Part shown: one piece after another, positions 17,401 to 24,528 of the stretch
How positions within the stretch are numbered: position 1 is the stretch's first letter
Layout of the letters: each line of letters begins with the position of its first letter
NCBI RefSeq assembly: GCF_027912515.1
Contig: NZ_CP115464.1
Coordinates: 1,116,001 to 1,180,000 of the forward strand
DNA: 64,000 nucleotides
Source of the DNA: Brevundimonas sp. NIBR10
GTDB taxonomy: Bacteria; Pseudomonadota; Alphaproteobacteria; Caulobacterales; Caulobacteraceae
Direction: 5' to 3'
Position numbers and translations under genes: made by a program
The notes under the pieces: generated by a model
The model's database searches: none
Seen by the model: only the letters and a program-made list of their open reading frames with translations
What the model was told of the DNA's origin: nothing

Positions 17401-17577
17401 ATGCTTCGCTGGGCTATATTCTTCTTCGTCGTCGCACTGATCGCGGCAGTTCTGGGCTTCGGCGGCATCGCCGGCATGTCCTTCGAGATCGCCAAGTTCG
17501 TGGCCATCATCGCCGTGATCCTGTTCGTGGTATCGCTCGTCATGAACGGCATGCGCGGTCGCGGCACTCGAATCTAG
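17401..17577 (+). CDS. DUF1328 (UPF0391) small membrane protein
   Basis: A 58-residue protein that is almost entirely two transmembrane helices: MLRWAIFFFVVALIAAVLGF, the loop GGIAGMSFEIAKFV, then AIIAVILFVVSLVM and a short basic end. The sequence fits the DUF1328/UPF0391 family (E. coli YtjA), which is abundant in stress regulons of alphaproteobacteria. The ATG at 17401 follows TTGGAGG with suitable spacing. It has its own EcfG-type promoter and is followed by an intrinsic terminator. Confidence 0.88.
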   Translation: MLRWAIFFFVVALIAAVLGFGGIAGMSFEIAKFVAIIAVILFVVSLVMNGMRGRGTRI

Positions 17578-17602
17578 CGACTCCTGCGGGTCGAAACGCT
17601 CA

Positions 17603-17635
17603 AGGCCGCCGCCCGACAGGGCGGCGGCCTTTTTC
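17603..17635 (+). terminator. Intrinsic terminator after the DUF1328 gene
   Basis: GGCCGCCGCCC, loop GACA, GGGCGGCGGCC followed by TTTTTC: a strong G/C stem with a T-run, 26 bases after the stop codon. Confidence 0.9.
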
Positions 17636-17726
17636 ATTGGGTGCTGCTCGAGAACTCACGCAGCAGAAAGGGCGGGGCCCGTCGCCGGACCCGCCCTCCC
17701 TGTTTCGGGCGTCTGAGTGACGTGGA

Positions 17727-17820
17727 CTAGAAGTCCATACCGCTCATGCCGCCGCCCTTCTTGGGGGGGTCGGCCACGGCCGCCCGAGTGGTGATCAGGA
17801 TCGAGGCCACCGAGGCGGCG
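17727..17820 (-). pseudogene. Truncated duplicate of the groEL 3' end, with its stop codon and terminator hairpin
   Basis: On the minus strand these bases encode [19 protein letters not shown] followed by KKGGGMSGMDF and a stop. The intact groEL at 22870-24516 ends [24 protein letters not shown] and the longer GGM tail. The DNA match continues past the stop: the 31 bases from the end of the coding region into the 3' flank are identical in both copies, and the downstream hairpin (17669-17697 here, 22813-22838 there) is similar. Homology stops abruptly at 17820. There is no start codon or remaining gene body, so this is a remnant: either one end of an insertion that duplicated the groEL tail, or the last trace of a second groEL. 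Most of the 300-base gap 17578-17877 is taken up by this. Confidence 0.88.
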
Positions 17821-17834
17821 ACGCCCAGGCCGTC

Positions 17835-17864
17835 GCTCCCCTCGCGGCCTCTGGCGAGGGGAGC
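17835..17864 (-). terminator. Hairpin downstream of the ferritin-like gene
   Basis: GCTCCCCTCG (17835-17844) and CGAGGGGAGC (17855-17864) form a 10-base-pair stem 14 bases after the ferritin-like stop. No clear T-run follows on the minus strand, so it may act as a weak terminator or mRNA end protector. It sits exactly next to the groEL remnant, close to the presumed insertion junction. Confidence 0.45.
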
Positions 17865-17877
17865 GAAGGAAAAGAGG

Positions 17878-18345
17878 CTAGCGAGATTGACGGAGGAGTT
17901 CGGCGGCCGCGCGATAGCGCTCGTAATGATCGCCCTCGTCGGACGCGATCTGGCGGAACATCGCGGCGGCGCGGGTGTCGCCCACGGCTTCGGCCTGGTC
18001 CGCAAAGCCGATATACATGGTCACGTTCTCGTATTGCTCGCCAGCCATCGCATCCACCAGATTGGCGTCGTTCGTGCCATCCAGCTTCAGGGCGTCGGCT
18101 TCGCGCGCGAAATGTTCGTTGGCCTCCACGTTAGCCGAGCTTTCGAACAGCTGGGCCAGTTCGACGTTGCCGCTCTCTCGTGCGACCTCGGCGTAGCGAA
18201 GATATTTCAGGTTGGCGAAGGCCTCGCCGTGCATGGCGGCTTCCAGATTGGCCCGCGTGTGCGGATTCAGGTCCTGGGCGGATGCCGCCCCGGCCGACAG
18301 GGCGATGGCGGTGAAGGCTGTGGTCAGAAGGCTCTTGAGGGTCAC
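17878..18345 (-). CDS. Exported ferritin-like (rubrerythrin-type diiron) protein
   Basis: A 155-residue protein with a signal peptide (MTLKSLLTTAFTAIALSAGA, cleavage after ASA) and a four-helix bundle. Likely diiron ligands are visible: E in HGEAFANLKY, E and H in EANEHF, E in AGEQYENVT, and D/E and H in SDEGDHY. This is the spacing of rubrerythrin-like ferritin domains. No rubredoxin domain is present. It is thus predicted to bind iron or react with peroxide in the periplasm. It is divergent from the PepSY gene, and its promoter region has a GTCAG-N6-GTCAG repeat shared with the other promoters of this block. Confidence 0.75.
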   Translation of the reverse strand: MTLKSLLTTAFTAIALSAGAASAQDLNPHTRANLEAAMHGEAFANLKYLRYAEVARESGNVELAQLFESSANVEANEHFAREADALKLDGTNDANLVDAMAGEQYENVTMYIGFADQAEAVGDTRAAAMFRQIASDEGDHYERYRAAAELLRQSR

Positions 18346-18401
18346 GAGAAGGTTCCGGTGTCTGGGGTGCGCCCGATGCGCCGGTGCCGTCTGGGCGCGA
18401 A

Positions 18402-18419
18402 GCCTGACCGGAGCCTGAC
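18402..18419 (-). promoter_or_regulatory. Direct-repeat operator upstream of the ferritin-like gene
   Basis: GCCTGAC at 18402-18408 and GCCTGAC at 18413-18419, an 11-base period. On the coding strand of the ferritin-like gene this reads GTCAGGC-N4-GTCAGGC, ending 58 bases before its ATG. Tandem half-sites one helical turn apart are the usual binding sites of OmpR/PhoB-family regulators; one such regulator is encoded 1 kb away. Confidence 0.6.
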
Positions 18420-18465
18420 GACGCCATTGTATCGGGCATTCGCGCTCGGCGCGGTGTCGATCGAG

Positions 18466-18507
18466 CCGTCAGGTGGCCGTCAGCTTCGGACGTCAGGTCG
18501 GCGTCAC
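18466..18507 (+). promoter_or_regulatory. Double direct-repeat operator upstream of the PepSY operon
   Basis: GTCAG occurs at 18468, 18479 and 18492, and GTCAC at 18503, giving two pairs with an 11-base period separated by 13 bases. The orientation is toward the PepSY gene, 46 bases before its ATG. The same GTCAG-N6-GTCAG pair precedes the ferritin-like and second cytochrome genes. Binding by the response regulator of the operon (autoregulation) is inferred. Confidence 0.6.
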
Positions 18508-18553
18508 CGGGCGATGTCGTCCGGCGACACATCCATCTTTCTCGAGGCTCCTC

Positions 18554-18856
18554 ATGAAGAAGTTCCTGATCCCTTCGGCCATCGCCTTGTCCCTGGCCGC
18601 AACCGTCGGCGTGGCCATGACCGGCTTTGCGACCTCGGCCTCGGCCGGTCCGGTCTGCACCACCGCCCCCCGCGCCCAATGGCTCACCGAAGCCCAGATG
18701 CGGGAGCGCATCGCACGACTGGGCTACACCAGCATTCGCGTCTTTCAGGTCAGCGGCAGCTGCTACGAAATCTATGCTCGTGCCGCGAACGGCCGTCGCG
18801 CCGAGGTGTATTTCAACCCGGTGACCGGTGCGGTCGTCCAGAACAACGAGGACTGA
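18554..18856 (+). CDS. Small exported PepSY-like protein
   Basis: A 100-residue protein. The signal peptide (MKKFLIPSAIALSLAATVGV, cleavage near SASA) is followed by about 68 residues with WLTEAQMRERIARLGYTSIR, a VSGSCYEIYARAANGRRAEVY strand and FNPVTGAVVQ, the alpha-beta pattern of a PepSY domain. Two cysteines (in GPVCTT and GSCYE) could form a disulfide. Such single-domain PepSY proteins are often encoded with a cytochrome b561 and a QseBC-type two-component system and are thought to act as periplasmic partners or inhibitors. It is the first gene of a five-gene operon. Confidence 0.75.
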   Translation: MKKFLIPSAIALSLAATVGVAMTGFATSASAGPVCTTAPRAQWLTEAQMRERIARLGYTSIRVFQVSGSCYEIYARAANGRRAEVYFNPVTGAVVQNNED

Positions 18857-18861
18857 GTCCT

Positions 18862-19476
18862 GTGACCAAGGCAACCGTGGTTCTGGGGGATGGGACGGTC
18901 GTCCCATCCCCTGCATTGGTGCCAAGGCGAACCAAGGTCTGGGATCCGGTCGTGCGCCTGTTTCACTGGACCCTCGTTCTGGGCATCGTCGCCAATCTGA
19001 CCGTGTTTCGCGAACTGAAGTCGGTTCACCGCTATGTCGGCTATGTCATCGTCGCAGCCATCACCATCCGGCTGGTGTGGGGATTCATCGGCCCGCGCCA
19101 CGCCCGGTTCGCCGATTTCGTGGCTCGGCCGCGTCGCCTGATCGGATATCTCAAGGCCATGATCCAGCGGCGTGAGCCACGCTACATCGGCCACAACCCG
19201 GCGGGCGGCCTGATGATGCTGGCGCTGATCCTGCTGTCGCTTTTCTGCGGCGTGACAGGCTGGATGATGGGTCTGGACGCCTTCTGGGGCGCGCCATGGC
19301 TGGAAGCCACGCACGAGACGGCCGCAAAAACCATCATGGCCCTCGCGATCCTGCATGTGCTTGCGGCCCTCGTGGAAAGCTGGCGTCACCGCGAAAATCT
19401 GGTCATGTCGATGGTGACCGGCTGGAAGCGTTCCGCCAGCGGAACGGATGTCGATCATGCGTCTCCTCCTCGTTGA
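18862..19476 (+). CDS. Cytochrome b561-type membrane protein
   Basis: A 204-residue inner-membrane protein with four predicted helices and conserved histidines: WDPVVRLFHWTLVLG in helix 1, ELKSVHRYVGY before helix 2, YIGHNPAGGLMML before helix 3, and THETAAK and LHVLAALVESWRHRENL around helix 4. This is the prokaryotic cytochrome b561 / Ni-Fe-hydrogenase b-type cytochrome pattern, binding two b haems and passing electrons across the membrane. The start is GTG at 18862, five bases after the PepSY stop; the open frame further upstream runs through non-coding DNA. The response regulator gene begins inside its last 29 bases. Confidence 0.82.
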   Translation: MTKATVVLGDGTVVPSPALVPRRTKVWDPVVRLFHWTLVLGIVANLTVFRELKSVHRYVGYVIVAAITIRLVWGFIGPRHARFADFVARPRRLIGYLKAMIQRREPRYIGHNPAGGLMMLALILLSLFCGVTGWMMGLDAFWGAPWLEATHETAAKTIMALAILHVLAALVESWRHRENLVMSMVTGWKRSASGTDVDHASPPR

Positions 19477-20134
19477 AGACACTATCCGACTGGGCGAGCT
19501 CCTCAGCGAAGGGCTCGGCCGCGATGGCTTCGTCGTCGACTGGCGTCAGGACATCGAGGGTGCGGCGGAGGCGGTCGCCAGCGCGACCTACGATCTGATC
19601 CTTCTGGACCTCGGACTGCCGGATGGCGACGGGCTCGACTGGGTGAGGACCCTGCGACGCGCGACCGACCTGACGCCCATTCTGGTGCTCACCGCGCGCG
19701 GTGGGCTCGACGATCGGGTTACGGGGCTGGACGCCGGCGCAGACGACTATCTGGTCAAGCCGTTCGAGGCTTCGGAGCTTTCGGCGCGGTGTCGCGCGAT
19801 CCTGCGTCGGCCCGGTCAGCGGATGACTCCGGTGCTTCGTGTGGGACCACTCGCGTTCGACGTCGCGTCGCGCCAGGCGGTGCACGGTGATCTGCCGATC
19901 GAACTGTCCCGCCGCGAAGGCGACCTTCTGGAGACGCTGATGCGCCGCGCGGGTTCGGTGGTGACCCGCGGGTCATTGGAAGAGTCTCTCTATGCGTTCA
20001 ACGAACCGGTCACACCCAATGCGGTTGAAGTGGCTGTCTCCCGACTTCGTCGCAAGCTCGACGAGGCGGGCTGCACGGGGATGCTGCACACGGTTCGAGG
20101 CCTTGGCTATCTGATGCGGGATGCCGTCGCGTGA
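19448..20134 (+). CDS. OmpR/PhoB-family response regulator (QseB/PmrA-like)
   Basis: A 228-residue transcription factor. The receiver domain (1-115) has the acidic pair E10-D11, the phospho-acceptor Asp54 in LILLDLGLPDGDG, the Thr in VLTARGG and the Lys in DDYLVKPF. The winged-helix domain (about 130-225) shows the usual ELSRREGDLLETLMRRAG segment, the recognition-helix stretch VTPNAVEVAVSRLRRKLD and the wing HTVRGLGYLM. ATG codons at 19448 and 19457 are both possible. It overlaps the cytochrome gene upstream and the kinase start downstream (GTGA), so it is translated as part of one operon. It is the natural candidate to bind the GTCAG repeats near this block. Confidence 0.92.
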   Translation: MSIMRLLLVEDTIRLGELLSEGLGRDGFVVDWRQDIEGAAEAVASATYDLILLDLGLPDGDGLDWVRTLRRATDLTPILVLTARGGLDDRVTGLDAGADDYLVKPFEASELSARCRAILRRPGQRMTPVLRVGPLAFDVASRQAVHGDLPIELSRREGDLLETLMRRAGSVVTRGSLEESLYAFNEPVTPNAVEVAVSRLRRKLDEAGCTGMLHTVRGLGYLMRDAVA

Positions 20135-21168
20135 CCCGTACGCCCTCCATTTTCCAGCGCCTGATGCTGGGGTTCGCCCTGATGAGCGTCATCGGCGGCT
20201 TCATCCTGCTTCTGTTCGTCGGCGTCGAATACGGCCTGTCCTCCCGCGCGAGGCGGGACGAGATCCAGTTCGCGGGGATCGCGAACGAGGTCGCCGACCA
20301 TGTCGTCGTGCCGCTGCTGGTGCTCATCATACCCATGACCCTGGCCGCGCTCTGGGTCATCCGCTCATCCCTTCGGCCGTTGAGCCTCGCCGGTGCGCGG
20401 ATCGAGGCCGCCCAGGCCGCTGACAAGGGTTTCCGGGTCGATCTGCAAGACTTTCCCATCGAGGCGACCGGCTTCGCTGACGCCGTGAATGGATTGCTGG
20501 CGCGCCTCGATGAGGCCGCGACCCGCCAGGAAGCGTTCGCCGCCGACGTTGCGCATGAGTTGAGAACGCCTCTTGCAGTTCTGGGGCTTGAGCTGGACCG
20601 GCTGGATTCGCCCGAGGCACACAGGCTGAAGCGGGATGTCTCGGCGATGTCGCGGCTGGTCGATCAGCTTCTGGTGCTGGCTCAACTGGATGCCCAGGCA
20701 GCGGCGCCGGTGACGGCGACCTCGGTCGATCTGGCGGGCATCGCCACGGAAATCGTCTCGCAGTACGCCCCCCTCGCGGTCGCAGAAAACAAGTCCTTGG
20801 CGCTCGAGCTGGACGGCGGAGTCCGGATTGGAGGCAGACGTGAAGCCATCGCCGCCGCGCTTCGGAACCTCGTCGAGAACGGGCTTCGAGTGACGCCGCC
20901 GGGAGGGACGGTGACGGTGACGGCTGGTTCCGGCGCAAGGCTTTCGGTGATCGATGGCGGGGGCGGACTTACGCCGGAGCGCCTCGCAGAACTCTCCCAG
21001 CGCTATCGCCGTGGAGATCACGCCAGCACAAGTGGAGCCGGTCTGGGATTGGCCATCGTCTCGCGAATCATGGCGGCGCATGGTGGACGGATCGAGACCC
21101 GGCCGGATCGGTCCGAACTGATCCTCGTCTTTGCCCCTTTATCGAGAACCGACCATGAGCCGACTTGA
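20131..21168 (+). CDS. Sensor histidine kinase of the iron/redox block
   Basis: A 345-residue membrane kinase of the QseC type: helix 1 (about 10-32), a very short periplasmic loop of about 25 residues, helix 2 (about 55-75), a HAMP-like region, then the HisKA domain with His142 in DVAHELRTPLAVLGLELD. The ATPase domain has NLVENGLRVTPPGG, VIDGGGGLTPERL and STSGAGLGLAIVSRIM. The N-box and G1-box are slightly off consensus (NGLRVTP instead of NALRHTP, DGGGG instead of D-x-G-P-G). The small periplasmic loop suggests sensing through the membrane or a partner such as the PepSY protein. It starts with GTG overlapping the regulator stop. Confidence 0.9.
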   Translation: MTRTPSIFQRLMLGFALMSVIGGFILLLFVGVEYGLSSRARRDEIQFAGIANEVADHVVVPLLVLIIPMTLAALWVIRSSLRPLSLAGARIEAAQAADKGFRVDLQDFPIEATGFADAVNGLLARLDEAATRQEAFAADVAHELRTPLAVLGLELDRLDSPEAHRLKRDVSAMSRLVDQLLVLAQLDAQAAAPVTATSVDLAGIATEIVSQYAPLAVAENKSLALELDGGVRIGGRREAIAAALRNLVENGLRVTPPGGTVTVTAGSGARLSVIDGGGGLTPERLAELSQRYRRGDHASTSGAGLGLAIVSRIMAAHGGRIETRPDRSELILVFAPLSRTDHEPT

Positions 21169-21856
21169 GCGCCATCCCGAACGCCACCTGGTCTCCCGGA
21201 TCGGCTGGCTACGCGCTGCGGTGCTGGGGGCCAACGATGGGCTGGTGTCGACCGCCAGTCTGATTGTCGGTGTGGCGGCTGCGCAGACGGACAAGACAGG
21301 CATCCTGATCGCCGGCGTCGCGGGGCTGGTCGCCGGTGCCATGTCCATGGCGGCGGGCGAATACGTCTCGGTCAGCTCCCAGGGTGATACCGAGGCCGCC
21401 GATATGGCGCGTGAGCGCGCCGAGCTTGACGCCGATCCCGAGGCCGAGACCCGCGAGCTGGCCGCGATCTATCGCAGCCGGGGCGTCGATGCGCAGGTGT
21501 CGCTGGAGGTCGCGCGCCAGTTGATGATCCATGATGCGCTGGGCGCGCACGCGCGTGACGAACTCGGTCTCTCGGAGCATACAGCCGCGCGTCCGATCCA
21601 GGCGGCCCTGACCTCGGCCGCGACCTTCGCGGTGGGAGCGGTCCTGCCGCTGGCGGTGGTGGTTGTGGCGCCCGGATCGCTGCTCGTCGTGCTGGTGTCG
21701 GGCTCGGCCCTCATCGGACTGGCCCTGCTGGGCGGCATCGGCGCCAGGGTCGGCGGGGCCGGTATCGCCAAGGCCGTCCTGCGGGTCACCTTCTGGGGGG
21801 CGTTCGCCATGGGGCTGACCGCCGGCATCGGTCACCTGTTCGGGACCTTCATCTAG
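21155..21856 (+). CDS. VIT/CCC1-family metal ion transporter
   Basis: A 233-residue membrane protein of the vacuolar iron transporter family, which moves Fe2+ or Mn2+ out of the cytoplasm. Family signatures are GWLRAAVLGANDGLVSTASLIVG in the first helix, VAGAMSMAAGEYVSVSSQGDTE (the conserved metal-path region) and a cytoplasmic acidic helix hairpin (ERAELDADPEAETRELAAIY). Three more helices follow. The ATG at 21155 lies inside the last 14 bases of the kinase gene in another frame, which marks it as the last gene of the PepSY operon. Export of iron would fit with the ferritin-like protein encoded nearby. Confidence 0.9.
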   Translation: MSRLERHPERHLVSRIGWLRAAVLGANDGLVSTASLIVGVAAAQTDKTGILIAGVAGLVAGAMSMAAGEYVSVSSQGDTEAADMARERAELDADPEAETRELAAIYRSRGVDAQVSLEVARQLMIHDALGAHARDELGLSEHTAARPIQAALTSAATFAVGAVLPLAVVVVAPGSLLVVLVSGSALIGLALLGGIGARVGGAGIAKAVLRVTFWGAFAMGLTAGIGHLFGTFI

Positions 21857-21875
21857 CCCGACCGTGTAAGGCGGT

Positions 21876-22595
21876 TCAGTCCTCGTCCGCTTCCCCGGCC
21901 TCGCCGCCCTCGCCAGCCTCGCCGCCCTCACCCCCTTCGCCGGCTTCCCCGTGTGCGCCCGGTGTGAAGGCCAGCGGATCGACACGCGTCGCTGCATAGG
22001 CGGCGCCCGCGACGACCAGGACGGCCAGGGGAATGGCCACGCGCGCCGGCGGAGCGGCGTCCTGGGCATTGGGGAAATGCGTCGTCTTCTTGCGGCCGGT
22101 GATCATGGCCCCGATCAGATTGTCTCGCGTCAGGAATGACATCGCCGCCACAGCGACGACATGCAGCGCGATCATCGCCAGGAGGATGTAGGCGATGGCT
22201 TCGTGCCCGCCCTCGCCGCCCGTGATCCCGGTGAAGGTCGTCGCGGCGACGAGGGCCAGAAGCGCCAGCACGGCTATCCCGCCTAGCGGGTTGTGGCCGA
22301 GCGAAGCATGAACGCGGCCCGCGAACAGTCCCCTCACGTGGCCCGCCATCCGCGACGGACGGATCAGATTCACAAAGCGGGCATGTTCTCCTCCCACAAA
22401 GCCCCAGACCAGCCTGAAGGCGATCAGGATCGCCGCCACCCAGCCCGCCGGCACATGCCAGGGCGACAGGGCGCTGCCCTCTTCCGAGGACAGGAAGGCG
22501 ACCGCGATGGCGGCTACGAGGAACCAGTGGAACAGGCGGATGCCCCAGTCCCAGGTCTTGATAGTTCTGATCGCCTGGGGAGCCGTGCTGGTCAT
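21876..22595 (-). CDS. Second cytochrome b561-type protein with acidic glycine-rich tail
   Basis: A 239-residue membrane protein with the same four-helix b-type cytochrome pattern as the gene at 18862: TWDWGIRLFHWFLVAAIAV, FVGGEHARFVNL, LGHNPLGGIAVLAL, GGEGGHEAIAYILL and IALHVVAVAAMSFLTRDNL. It then adds a fifth hydrophobic segment (VAIPLAVLVVAGAAYAATRV) and a periplasm-facing tail rich in Gly and Glu (GEAGEGGEGGEAGEGGEAGE) ending in ADED. Such a tail could bind metal ions loosely. The ATG at 22595 follows GGAGG. It is convergent with the VIT gene, 19 bases apart, and has its own GTCAG-N6-GTCAG operator. Confidence 0.8.
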   Translation of the reverse strand: MTSTAPQAIRTIKTWDWGIRLFHWFLVAAIAVAFLSSEEGSALSPWHVPAGWVAAILIAFRLVWGFVGGEHARFVNLIRPSRMAGHVRGLFAGRVHASLGHNPLGGIAVLALLALVAATTFTGITGGEGGHEAIAYILLAMIALHVVAVAAMSFLTRDNLIGAMITGRKKTTHFPNAQDAAPPARVAIPLAVLVVAGAAYAATRVDPLAFTPGAHGEAGEGGEGGEAGEGGEAGEADED

Positions 22596-22630
22596 TGAAA
22601 CCTCCGTTTGAAGGGAGACTGGTCGCAGAA

Positions 22631-22647
22631 CCTGACGACAGCCTGAC
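22631..22647 (-). promoter_or_regulatory. Direct-repeat operator upstream of the second cytochrome gene
   Basis: CCTGAC at 22631-22636 and CCTGAC at 22642-22647, an 11-base period; on the coding strand GTCAGG-N5-GTCAGG, about 36 bases before the ATG at 22595. It matches the repeats before the ferritin-like and PepSY genes in sequence, period and orientation. The remainder of the gap to the groEL terminator (22648-22803) holds nothing I can name. Confidence 0.6.
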
Positions 22648-22803
22648 ATCGAGCGGGTCGTACGTTGGCTCAGTTCAAGAGTTGCTTGCAGGCGGCTGGG
22701 GCCGTGGAAGGTAGATGTTCTGGAAGAGCGCGAACGCGCCCTCACACAGGCGGTCGCAGCCGGAAAGCCGGAGTTCCAAAAACTGCCTTGTGCAGCAACT
22801 GAC

Positions 22804-22838
22804 CAAAGAAAAGGGCGGGCCCGTCGCCGGACCCGCCC
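22804..22838 (-). terminator. Intrinsic terminator of groES-groEL
   Basis: On the minus strand GGGCGGGTCCG, loop GCGA, CGGGCCCGCCC, then TTTTCTTTGG. It begins 32 bases after the groEL stop codon. A degraded copy is found with the groEL remnant near 17670-17697. Confidence 0.88.
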
Positions 22839-22869
22839 TCCCTTTTTTCTGGCGTCTGAGTGACGTGGA

Positions 22870-24528
<1,659 letters not shown>

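Follow-up and report, generated by a model that had tools for sequence, protein, structure and literature searches.

In the genome of Brevundimonas sp. NIBR10 (4,006,378 bases, one contig), a block of seven genes carries the direct repeat GTCAG-N6-GTCAG in front of each of its three transcription units. The block was analysed within a stretch of 64,000 nt (NZ_CP115464.1, 1,116,001-1,180,000; hereafter the window, to which positions in the block refer). An operon on the plus strand has the order PepSY-cytochrome-regulator-kinase-VIT, and the rubrerythrin gene and a second cytochrome gene each form a unit of their own on the minus strand. From sequence comparison we consider it highly probable that the repeat is the binding site of the response regulator encoded in the block, which is predicted to act as an activator of all three units, including its own operon. 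Since the repeats precede each unit and also accompany close relatives of the regulator elsewhere, on plasmids included, the cassette likely switches itself on; the prediction of a self-activating regulon is well supported by comparison.

The ~4.2 kb that hold all three exact operators contain the following sites; the conserved A given with them is treated below.

18404 to 18419, minus strand: operator GTCAGGCTCCGGTCAG upstream of the rubrerythrin gene, with the conserved A at 18392; same site in relatives G035 and G030
18468 to 18483, plus strand: operator GTCAGGTGGCCGTCAG upstream of the PepSY-cytochrome-regulator-kinase-VIT operon, with the conserved A at 18495; found at the corresponding position in G035 and G030
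18492 to 18507, plus strand: imperfect second pair GTCAGGTCGGCGTCAC before the PepSY operon; G at +27; kept in G035, not in G030
22632 to 22647, minus strand: operator GTCAGGCTGTCGTCAG upstream of the second cytochrome gene, with the conserved A at 22620; G035, G030, G020 and G033 also have a site before this gene

That the motif stands before all three units, and reads GTCAG on the coding strand of the gene downstream, had been claimed in the initial annotation, and both statements hold at the three exact sites. Its distance of 35-60 bases before the start is roughly right, gaps being 58 bases for the rubrerythrin gene (GTG), 70 and 46 for the PepSY gene (ATG) and 36 for the second cytochrome gene (ATG). 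As to the two pairs of 11-base period suggested upstream of the operon, the first is exact, but the second is imperfect and offset by 24 bases, which is not a multiple of 11.

The whole genome contains 12 exact copies of GTCAG-N6-GTCAG, three of them inside the block. At genome density 0.013 sites would be expected in 4.2 kb, and the probability of at least three exact sites is ~3e-7. Chance clustering, which would make the three sites a coincidence and whose probability we regard as negligible, is ruled out by this density together with conservation of the sites across families and plasmids. The only point in its favour is that the motif is common once one mismatch is allowed: at this tolerance 9 matches are found in the window, where shuffled sequences average 4.4 and 3 of 100 shuffles reach 9, a weak excess.

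A genome-wide count of the motif, proposed earlier as a check, gave a divided answer. Three of the 12 exact sites do cluster in the block, but in 54 of 61 genomes the bare pattern is commoner than its reversed control, and because this excess occurs with or without the regulator, such counts alone are not decisive. The pattern extended by the downstream pyrimidine-A is more telling. The 11 genomes in which the motif stands near the best regulator homologue have 35 such sites between them, and the remaining 50 genomes together also have 35. What decides for the site is its linkage to the regulator and the A downstream, not the genome count. The claim that the regulon is closed is partly supported. 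It holds for exact sites with the A, since the genome's three exact sites followed by pyrimidine-A are all in the block. Weaker targets may lie outside it, because with up to one mismatch there are 45 sites (the three included) and 26 of the reversed control. The bare-pattern excess may stem from codon usage.

Linkage was assessed at 163 loci of response regulators (30, the window's own included, plus 80 plus 53, taken best-first among the matches listed), with 1.5 kb searched on each side. The motif is present at 45/163 loci and the reversed control at 0/163. Its presence follows identity to the window regulator: 18/18 loci carry it at >=55% identity, 22/36 at 50-55%, 3/31 at 47-50%, 0/37 at 44-47% and 2/41 below 44%, and in one of the last two (L112) the site lies inside the regulator open reading frame (ORF). 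Spacing of N6 accounts for 81 sites at the 163 loci, against 18 for N3-N5 and N7-N9 combined. In a FastTree tree, the largest clade around the window regulator that contains positives only has 35 members (support 0.79), with 10 positives and all 118 negatives outside. This 35/35 is descriptive and carries no test because the clade was picked for being all-positive; moreover, locus counts are not independent because the loci share ancestry. Orthologous promoters, another proposed check, agree with the assignment, as G035 and G030 carry sites before all three units. An OmpR/PhoB-type direct-repeat operator, likely read by the block's own regulator, had been suggested from the start, and the co-occurrence of site and regulator across families and on plasmids speaks for it. 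An operator is thereby assigned to a regulator clade by comparison alone, with held-out tests.

The output genes behave in the same way. In a comparison that took in 30 of 33 VIT matches and 15 of 19 cytochrome matches, VIT loci of relatives have a site within 1.5 kb in 6/6 cases linked to the regulator and in 0/24 unlinked ones. Rubrerythrin loci have a site in 3/3 cases within the block and 0/3 elsewhere, and cytochrome loci in 5/5 within the block and 3/10 elsewhere, those three without the downstream A.

When clade sites were aligned on the motif, one downstream position proved strongly conserved, an A 27 bases from the site start (+27). It is present in 49/56 clade sites (44/51 after stricter redundancy removal), from which the rule was derived, in 13/13 sites beyond the clade (the in-ORF site of L112 included) and in 21/22 plasmid sites. 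Nine plasmid sites are near-copies of clade sites and three of other plasmid sites; among the remaining ten, 9/10 have the A. In the genome of Brevundimonas sp. NIBR10 it is found at the three block sites only and at 0/9 other exact sites. A pyrimidine precedes it in many cases, (T/C)A occupying +26/+27 in 38/51 clade sites, and given the distance of 27 bases from the site start, the second half-site therefore ends 10 bases before (T/C)A in most sites. By analogy with PhoB, and with the activator BqsR, in which the downstream pentamer overlaps the -35 (PMC4682146), we infer that (T/C)A may be the start of a -10 element, 10 bases past the second half-site. A phosphorylated regulator dimer would read the two half-sites head to tail and recruit RNA polymerase at a promoter with weak or absent -35 element (class II activation).

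It is improbable that the regulator represses the three promoters rather than activating them. A repressor could also sit upstream of a -10 element, and autoregulation can be negative. Nevertheless, the half-site ends 10 bases before the presumed -10, no consensus -35/-10 pair of a sigma-70 promoter was found in 17500-23000, and BqsR, which has the same pentamer geometry, is described as an activator whose downstream pentamer overlaps the -35 (PMC4682146).

Several loci show the site in other surroundings (gene calls here are crude and serve for orientation, with Pfam run on ten of the genes). In Sphingomonas L053, as in the Sphingomonas plasmid loci L207-L210, the VIT gene stands apart from the kinase gene, some 105-175 bases behind it, and has its own site. 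In L049 a site accompanies the regulator-kinase pair and another an HlyD-RND efflux pair; f2 and f5 contain further loci that resemble L049, the RND pair in these being judged by gene sizes only. Some promoters carry arrays, with seven overlapping or adjacent GTCAG pairs in L165 and four in L161. At L165 / L197:5504-5607 the seven pairs, mostly of 11-base period, precede an 85-aa ORF without Pfam match, which is followed by the regulator, and L193 has a similar array and small ORF. GTCAG pairs or triples also lie near a b561 gene in three f3 genomes (L241, 995-1021; L242, 1013-1039; L236, 1015-1030), none with A at +27. In G054 another regulator homologue is near such a pair. These pairs and triples perhaps belong to a second GTCAG-reading system.

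The genes of the block are the following.

17878 to 18345, minus strand: rubrerythrin-like protein, 155 aa, GTG start; Pfam Rubrerythrin 5.7e-15, PDB rubrerythrins; N-terminus signal-like by eye
18554 to 18856, plus strand: PepSY_2 protein, 100 aa, ATG start; Pfam 2.1e-21; N-terminus signal-like by eye
18862 to 19476, plus strand: cytochrome b561-type protein (Ni_hydr_CYTB); Pfam 2.6e-26
19448 to 20134, plus strand: response regulator, PmrA/QseB/BqsR-like, OmpR family; A196 and S198 in the recognition helix
20131 to 21168, plus strand: histidine kinase with short periplasmic loop; E53-V-A-D56-H57 (20287-20301) before the presumed second transmembrane segment (TM2)
21155 to 21856, plus strand: VIT family transporter (predicted Fe/Mn); Pfam VIT1 1.5e-64
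21876 to 22595, minus strand: second cytochrome b561-type protein with Glu/Gly-rich tail, ATG start; Pfam 3.7e-16 and sequence

With Pfam domains Response_reg (6.9e-24) and Trans_reg_C (4.8e-20), the window regulator has the receiver and winged helix of the OmpR/PhoB family, and in keeping with this family 11-base-period direct repeats are present before its own operon and the neighbouring units. Its best NCBIfam match is PmrA (NF007928) with 191 bits, below the cut-off of 330; cztR_silR_copR (TIGR01387) reaches 190.5 bits, below 279.2. Judged by its sequence, the regulator belongs to the PmrA/QseB/BqsR branch. Base-specific contacts of PmrA include His193 and His195 (PMC3973317), which align with A196 and S198 of the window regulator, so that His is found at neither position. 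Published half-sites of this branch are of the CTTAA/TTAAG type for PmrA (PMC3973317), and the BqsR operator is TTAAG-N6-TTAAG, of the same period (PMC4682146). These are matched by motif-negative relatives, whose commonest upstream 11-period word is CTTAA/TTAAG (9/118 loci). Clade loci have a TTAAG pair in 0/35 cases and a GTCAG pair in 35/35.

With the regulator ORF left out, GTCAG pairs occur at 44/71 loci with S198 vs 0/92 without it, and TTAAG pairs at 14/63 loci with H198 vs 0/100 without it. Beyond the clade, GTCAG is found at 9/36 S198 loci vs 1/92 others, the one being L112 (Fisher p 4e-5, with ancestry shared among loci). The change of half-site from TTAAG to GTCAG tracks Ser at the position of PmrA His195, and GTCAG would be a half-site new to a known regulator branch; no published description of this regulator clade was found in open PMC papers. 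A bolder proposal, to which we give somewhat less than even odds, is that the operator may be readable from the recognition helix throughout the PmrA/QseB/BqsR branch. At base 3 of the half-site, A would be read by His and C by Ser at PmrA position 195, while the residue at 193 (His, Tyr or another) would sway base 1. TTAAG, GTAAG and GTCAG would be steps of one code, and the GTCAG form would drive a mobile, self-wired cassette for envelope defence against metals and oxidants that moves between chromosome and plasmid with its operators. Specificity change among OmpR-family regulators would become a two-residue question. Further 11-period words upstream among the 118 motif-negative loci are GACAG (5) and GTAAG (4), possible operator variants.

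The kinases share a motif as well. E-x-x-x-H-(V/I/L)-x-x-P before the presumed TM2 was found in 35/35 clade kinases, 0/8 motif-positive ones beyond the clade and 1/87 motif-negative ones; the count used a fixed stretch before the H-box and left out 27 loci without recognised H-box (25 motif-negative, 2 motif-positive) and six without kinase match. Its fourth position is occupied by E in 13 of the 35 clade members, by D in 19, by Q in 2 and by Y in 1. Known iron-sensing kinases, PmrB and BqsS, use Exx(x)E in the periplasmic part (PMC12666569). We infer that the present kinase may sense metal at E-x-x-D-H; metal bound at or near this motif would drive it, possibly helped by the co-transcribed PepSY protein. 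In Vibrio cholerae the small PepSY protein DbfQ acts on the kinase DbfS, in a pathway that responds to membrane changes (PMC12714742), and because DbfQ acts on its kinase, the PepSY protein may by analogy modulate the kinase here. The PepSY_2 gene is located two genes upstream of the regulator gene, hence within four genes of kinase and regulator, as in DbfQRS-like modules.

The output of the system, namely rubrerythrin, two b-type cytochromes and the VIT transporter, would rid the envelope of excess metal and reactive oxygen. The VIT, rubrerythrin, cytochrome and PepSY families point to iron or manganese and to oxidants or peroxide in this compartment, and the initial idea of iron or redox stress in the periplasm is compatible with the genes present. 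The trigger is probably metal or oxidant stress at the cell envelope. Iron is a candidate signal, and another metal is possible because the same operator precedes RND efflux genes elsewhere. We see close to an even chance that the signal is other than iron, be it a different metal (Cu, Zn, Cd, Mn), an oxidant, or damage to the envelope that the PepSY protein passes on. The operator precedes RND adaptor genes on two plasmids (with a CusA/CzcA-type gene adjoining on one) and the HlyD-RND pair in L049, a plasmid copy of the module adjoins a heavy-metal P-type ATPase gene, and the response of the DbfQ-DbfS pathway to membrane changes would suit envelope damage. VIT and rubrerythrin, on the other hand, speak for iron or manganese and peroxide. 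BqsRS, with the same operator geometry, is Fe2+-responsive (PMC12666569).

Besides the two limits on locus counts given above, several observations weigh against a site read by the block's own regulator under a metal-sensing kinase. The site is missing from VIT and cytochrome genes that f2 genomes carry at a distance from the regulator, and the GTCAG pairs found near cytochrome genes in three f3 genomes lack the A. Beyond the clade only the said 9/36 S198 loci have GTCAG, and S198 is not sufficient because 27/118 motif-negative regulators also have it. Of the presumed -10 element only the A is strongly conserved, and a consensus sigma-70 promoter is missing from the interval searched. The strict ExxE of known iron sensors is absent from the window kinase, which has E53-V-A-D56-H57 instead. 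The excess of the bare pattern in 54/61 genomes, regulator or not, belongs here too; together with the f3 pairs, which lie outside such a block, it would suit a site that belongs to another regulator, such as a global factor or an alternative sigma factor, with the linked regulator as a bystander. We hold this to be very unlikely, since site presence tracks relatives of the regulator in the regulator's own promoters, on plasmids and in rearranged blocks, and unlinked VIT loci are without the site.

Among known systems, PmrAB/BasRS has targets that differ from those of the present block. It resembles the block in its half-site period of 11 (PMC3973317), in its iron-sensing kinase (PMC12666569) and in PmrA being the best, though sub-threshold, NCBIfam match of the window regulator; it differs in its CTTAA-type half-site contacted by His193 and His195 (PMC3973317), where the block has GTCAG with Ala196 and Ser198. 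BqsRS/CarRS of Pseudomonas aeruginosa is likewise a two-component activator with a metal theme, Fe2+-responsive there (PMC4682146, PMC12666569). Its pentamer pairs are 6 bases apart and form clusters (PMC4682146), and PepSY genes adjoin the system (PMC12714742). In contrast, its half-site is TTAAG and its regulon is another one, and BqsS senses via RExxEN in the periplasmic domain, whereas the present clade has ExxxH before the presumed TM2. DbfQRS and other modules of PepSY protein and two-component system encode a small periplasmic PepSY protein with regulator and kinase, but b561, rubrerythrin and VIT genes and the operator are not mentioned for them in the consulted part of PMC12714742. 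UzcRS of Caulobacter crescentus, also an alphaproteobacterium, is a metal-responsive two-component activator of envelope genes; unlike the present regulator it has the motif CATTAC-N6-TTAA and a global regulon (PMC8963506). UzcR as the block's regulator was ruled out by this motif.

Ten plasmid stretches were analysed, eight being all records of the plasmid regulator search and two coming from another search. The nine modules with a regulator have 22 sites, all of them intergenic, and 21/22 precede an annotated VIT, cytochrome, PepSY, rubrerythrin-type, RND adaptor or regulator gene; the last one, in L209, has no annotated gene behind it (positions were judged against the genes annotated around the module, and the other genes of the stretches overlap no site). 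The remaining stretch, a VIT-PepSY-cytochrome cluster on a Paracoccus plasmid (L214) that lacks an annotated regulator and whose record did not come up in the regulator search, has no site. On alphaproteobacterial plasmids, such linkage predicts which genes of the rubrerythrin, VIT, b-type cytochrome and RND families switch on together. In L209 (Sphingomonas sp. NIC1 plasmid) the divergent site on the rubrerythrin side persists with no rubrerythrin gene annotated behind it, and the kinase is annotated in two pieces.

The module appears mobile. On three plasmids recombinase and transposase genes stand beside it. In the window, similarity to G035 spans 17824-22647 and stops at the block edges, and the flanks have no match in the five relatives' loci compared. 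An empty insertion site was sought at groEL, which neighbours the block: in five of 12 relatives' groEL loci compared, none matched the left flank beyond the groEL tail. A diverged copy of the groEL 3' end lies on the far side of the block and is likely a recombination scar of cassette arrival. The pair consists of 17667-17832, with the diverged groEL 3' end and downstream sequence left of the block, and 22810-23008, where groEL on the right is intact. Finally, the C-terminal tail of the second cytochrome (21876-21970) is acidic and Glu/Gly-rich (EAGEGGEGGEAGEGGEAGEADED), possibly periplasmic and metal-binding.

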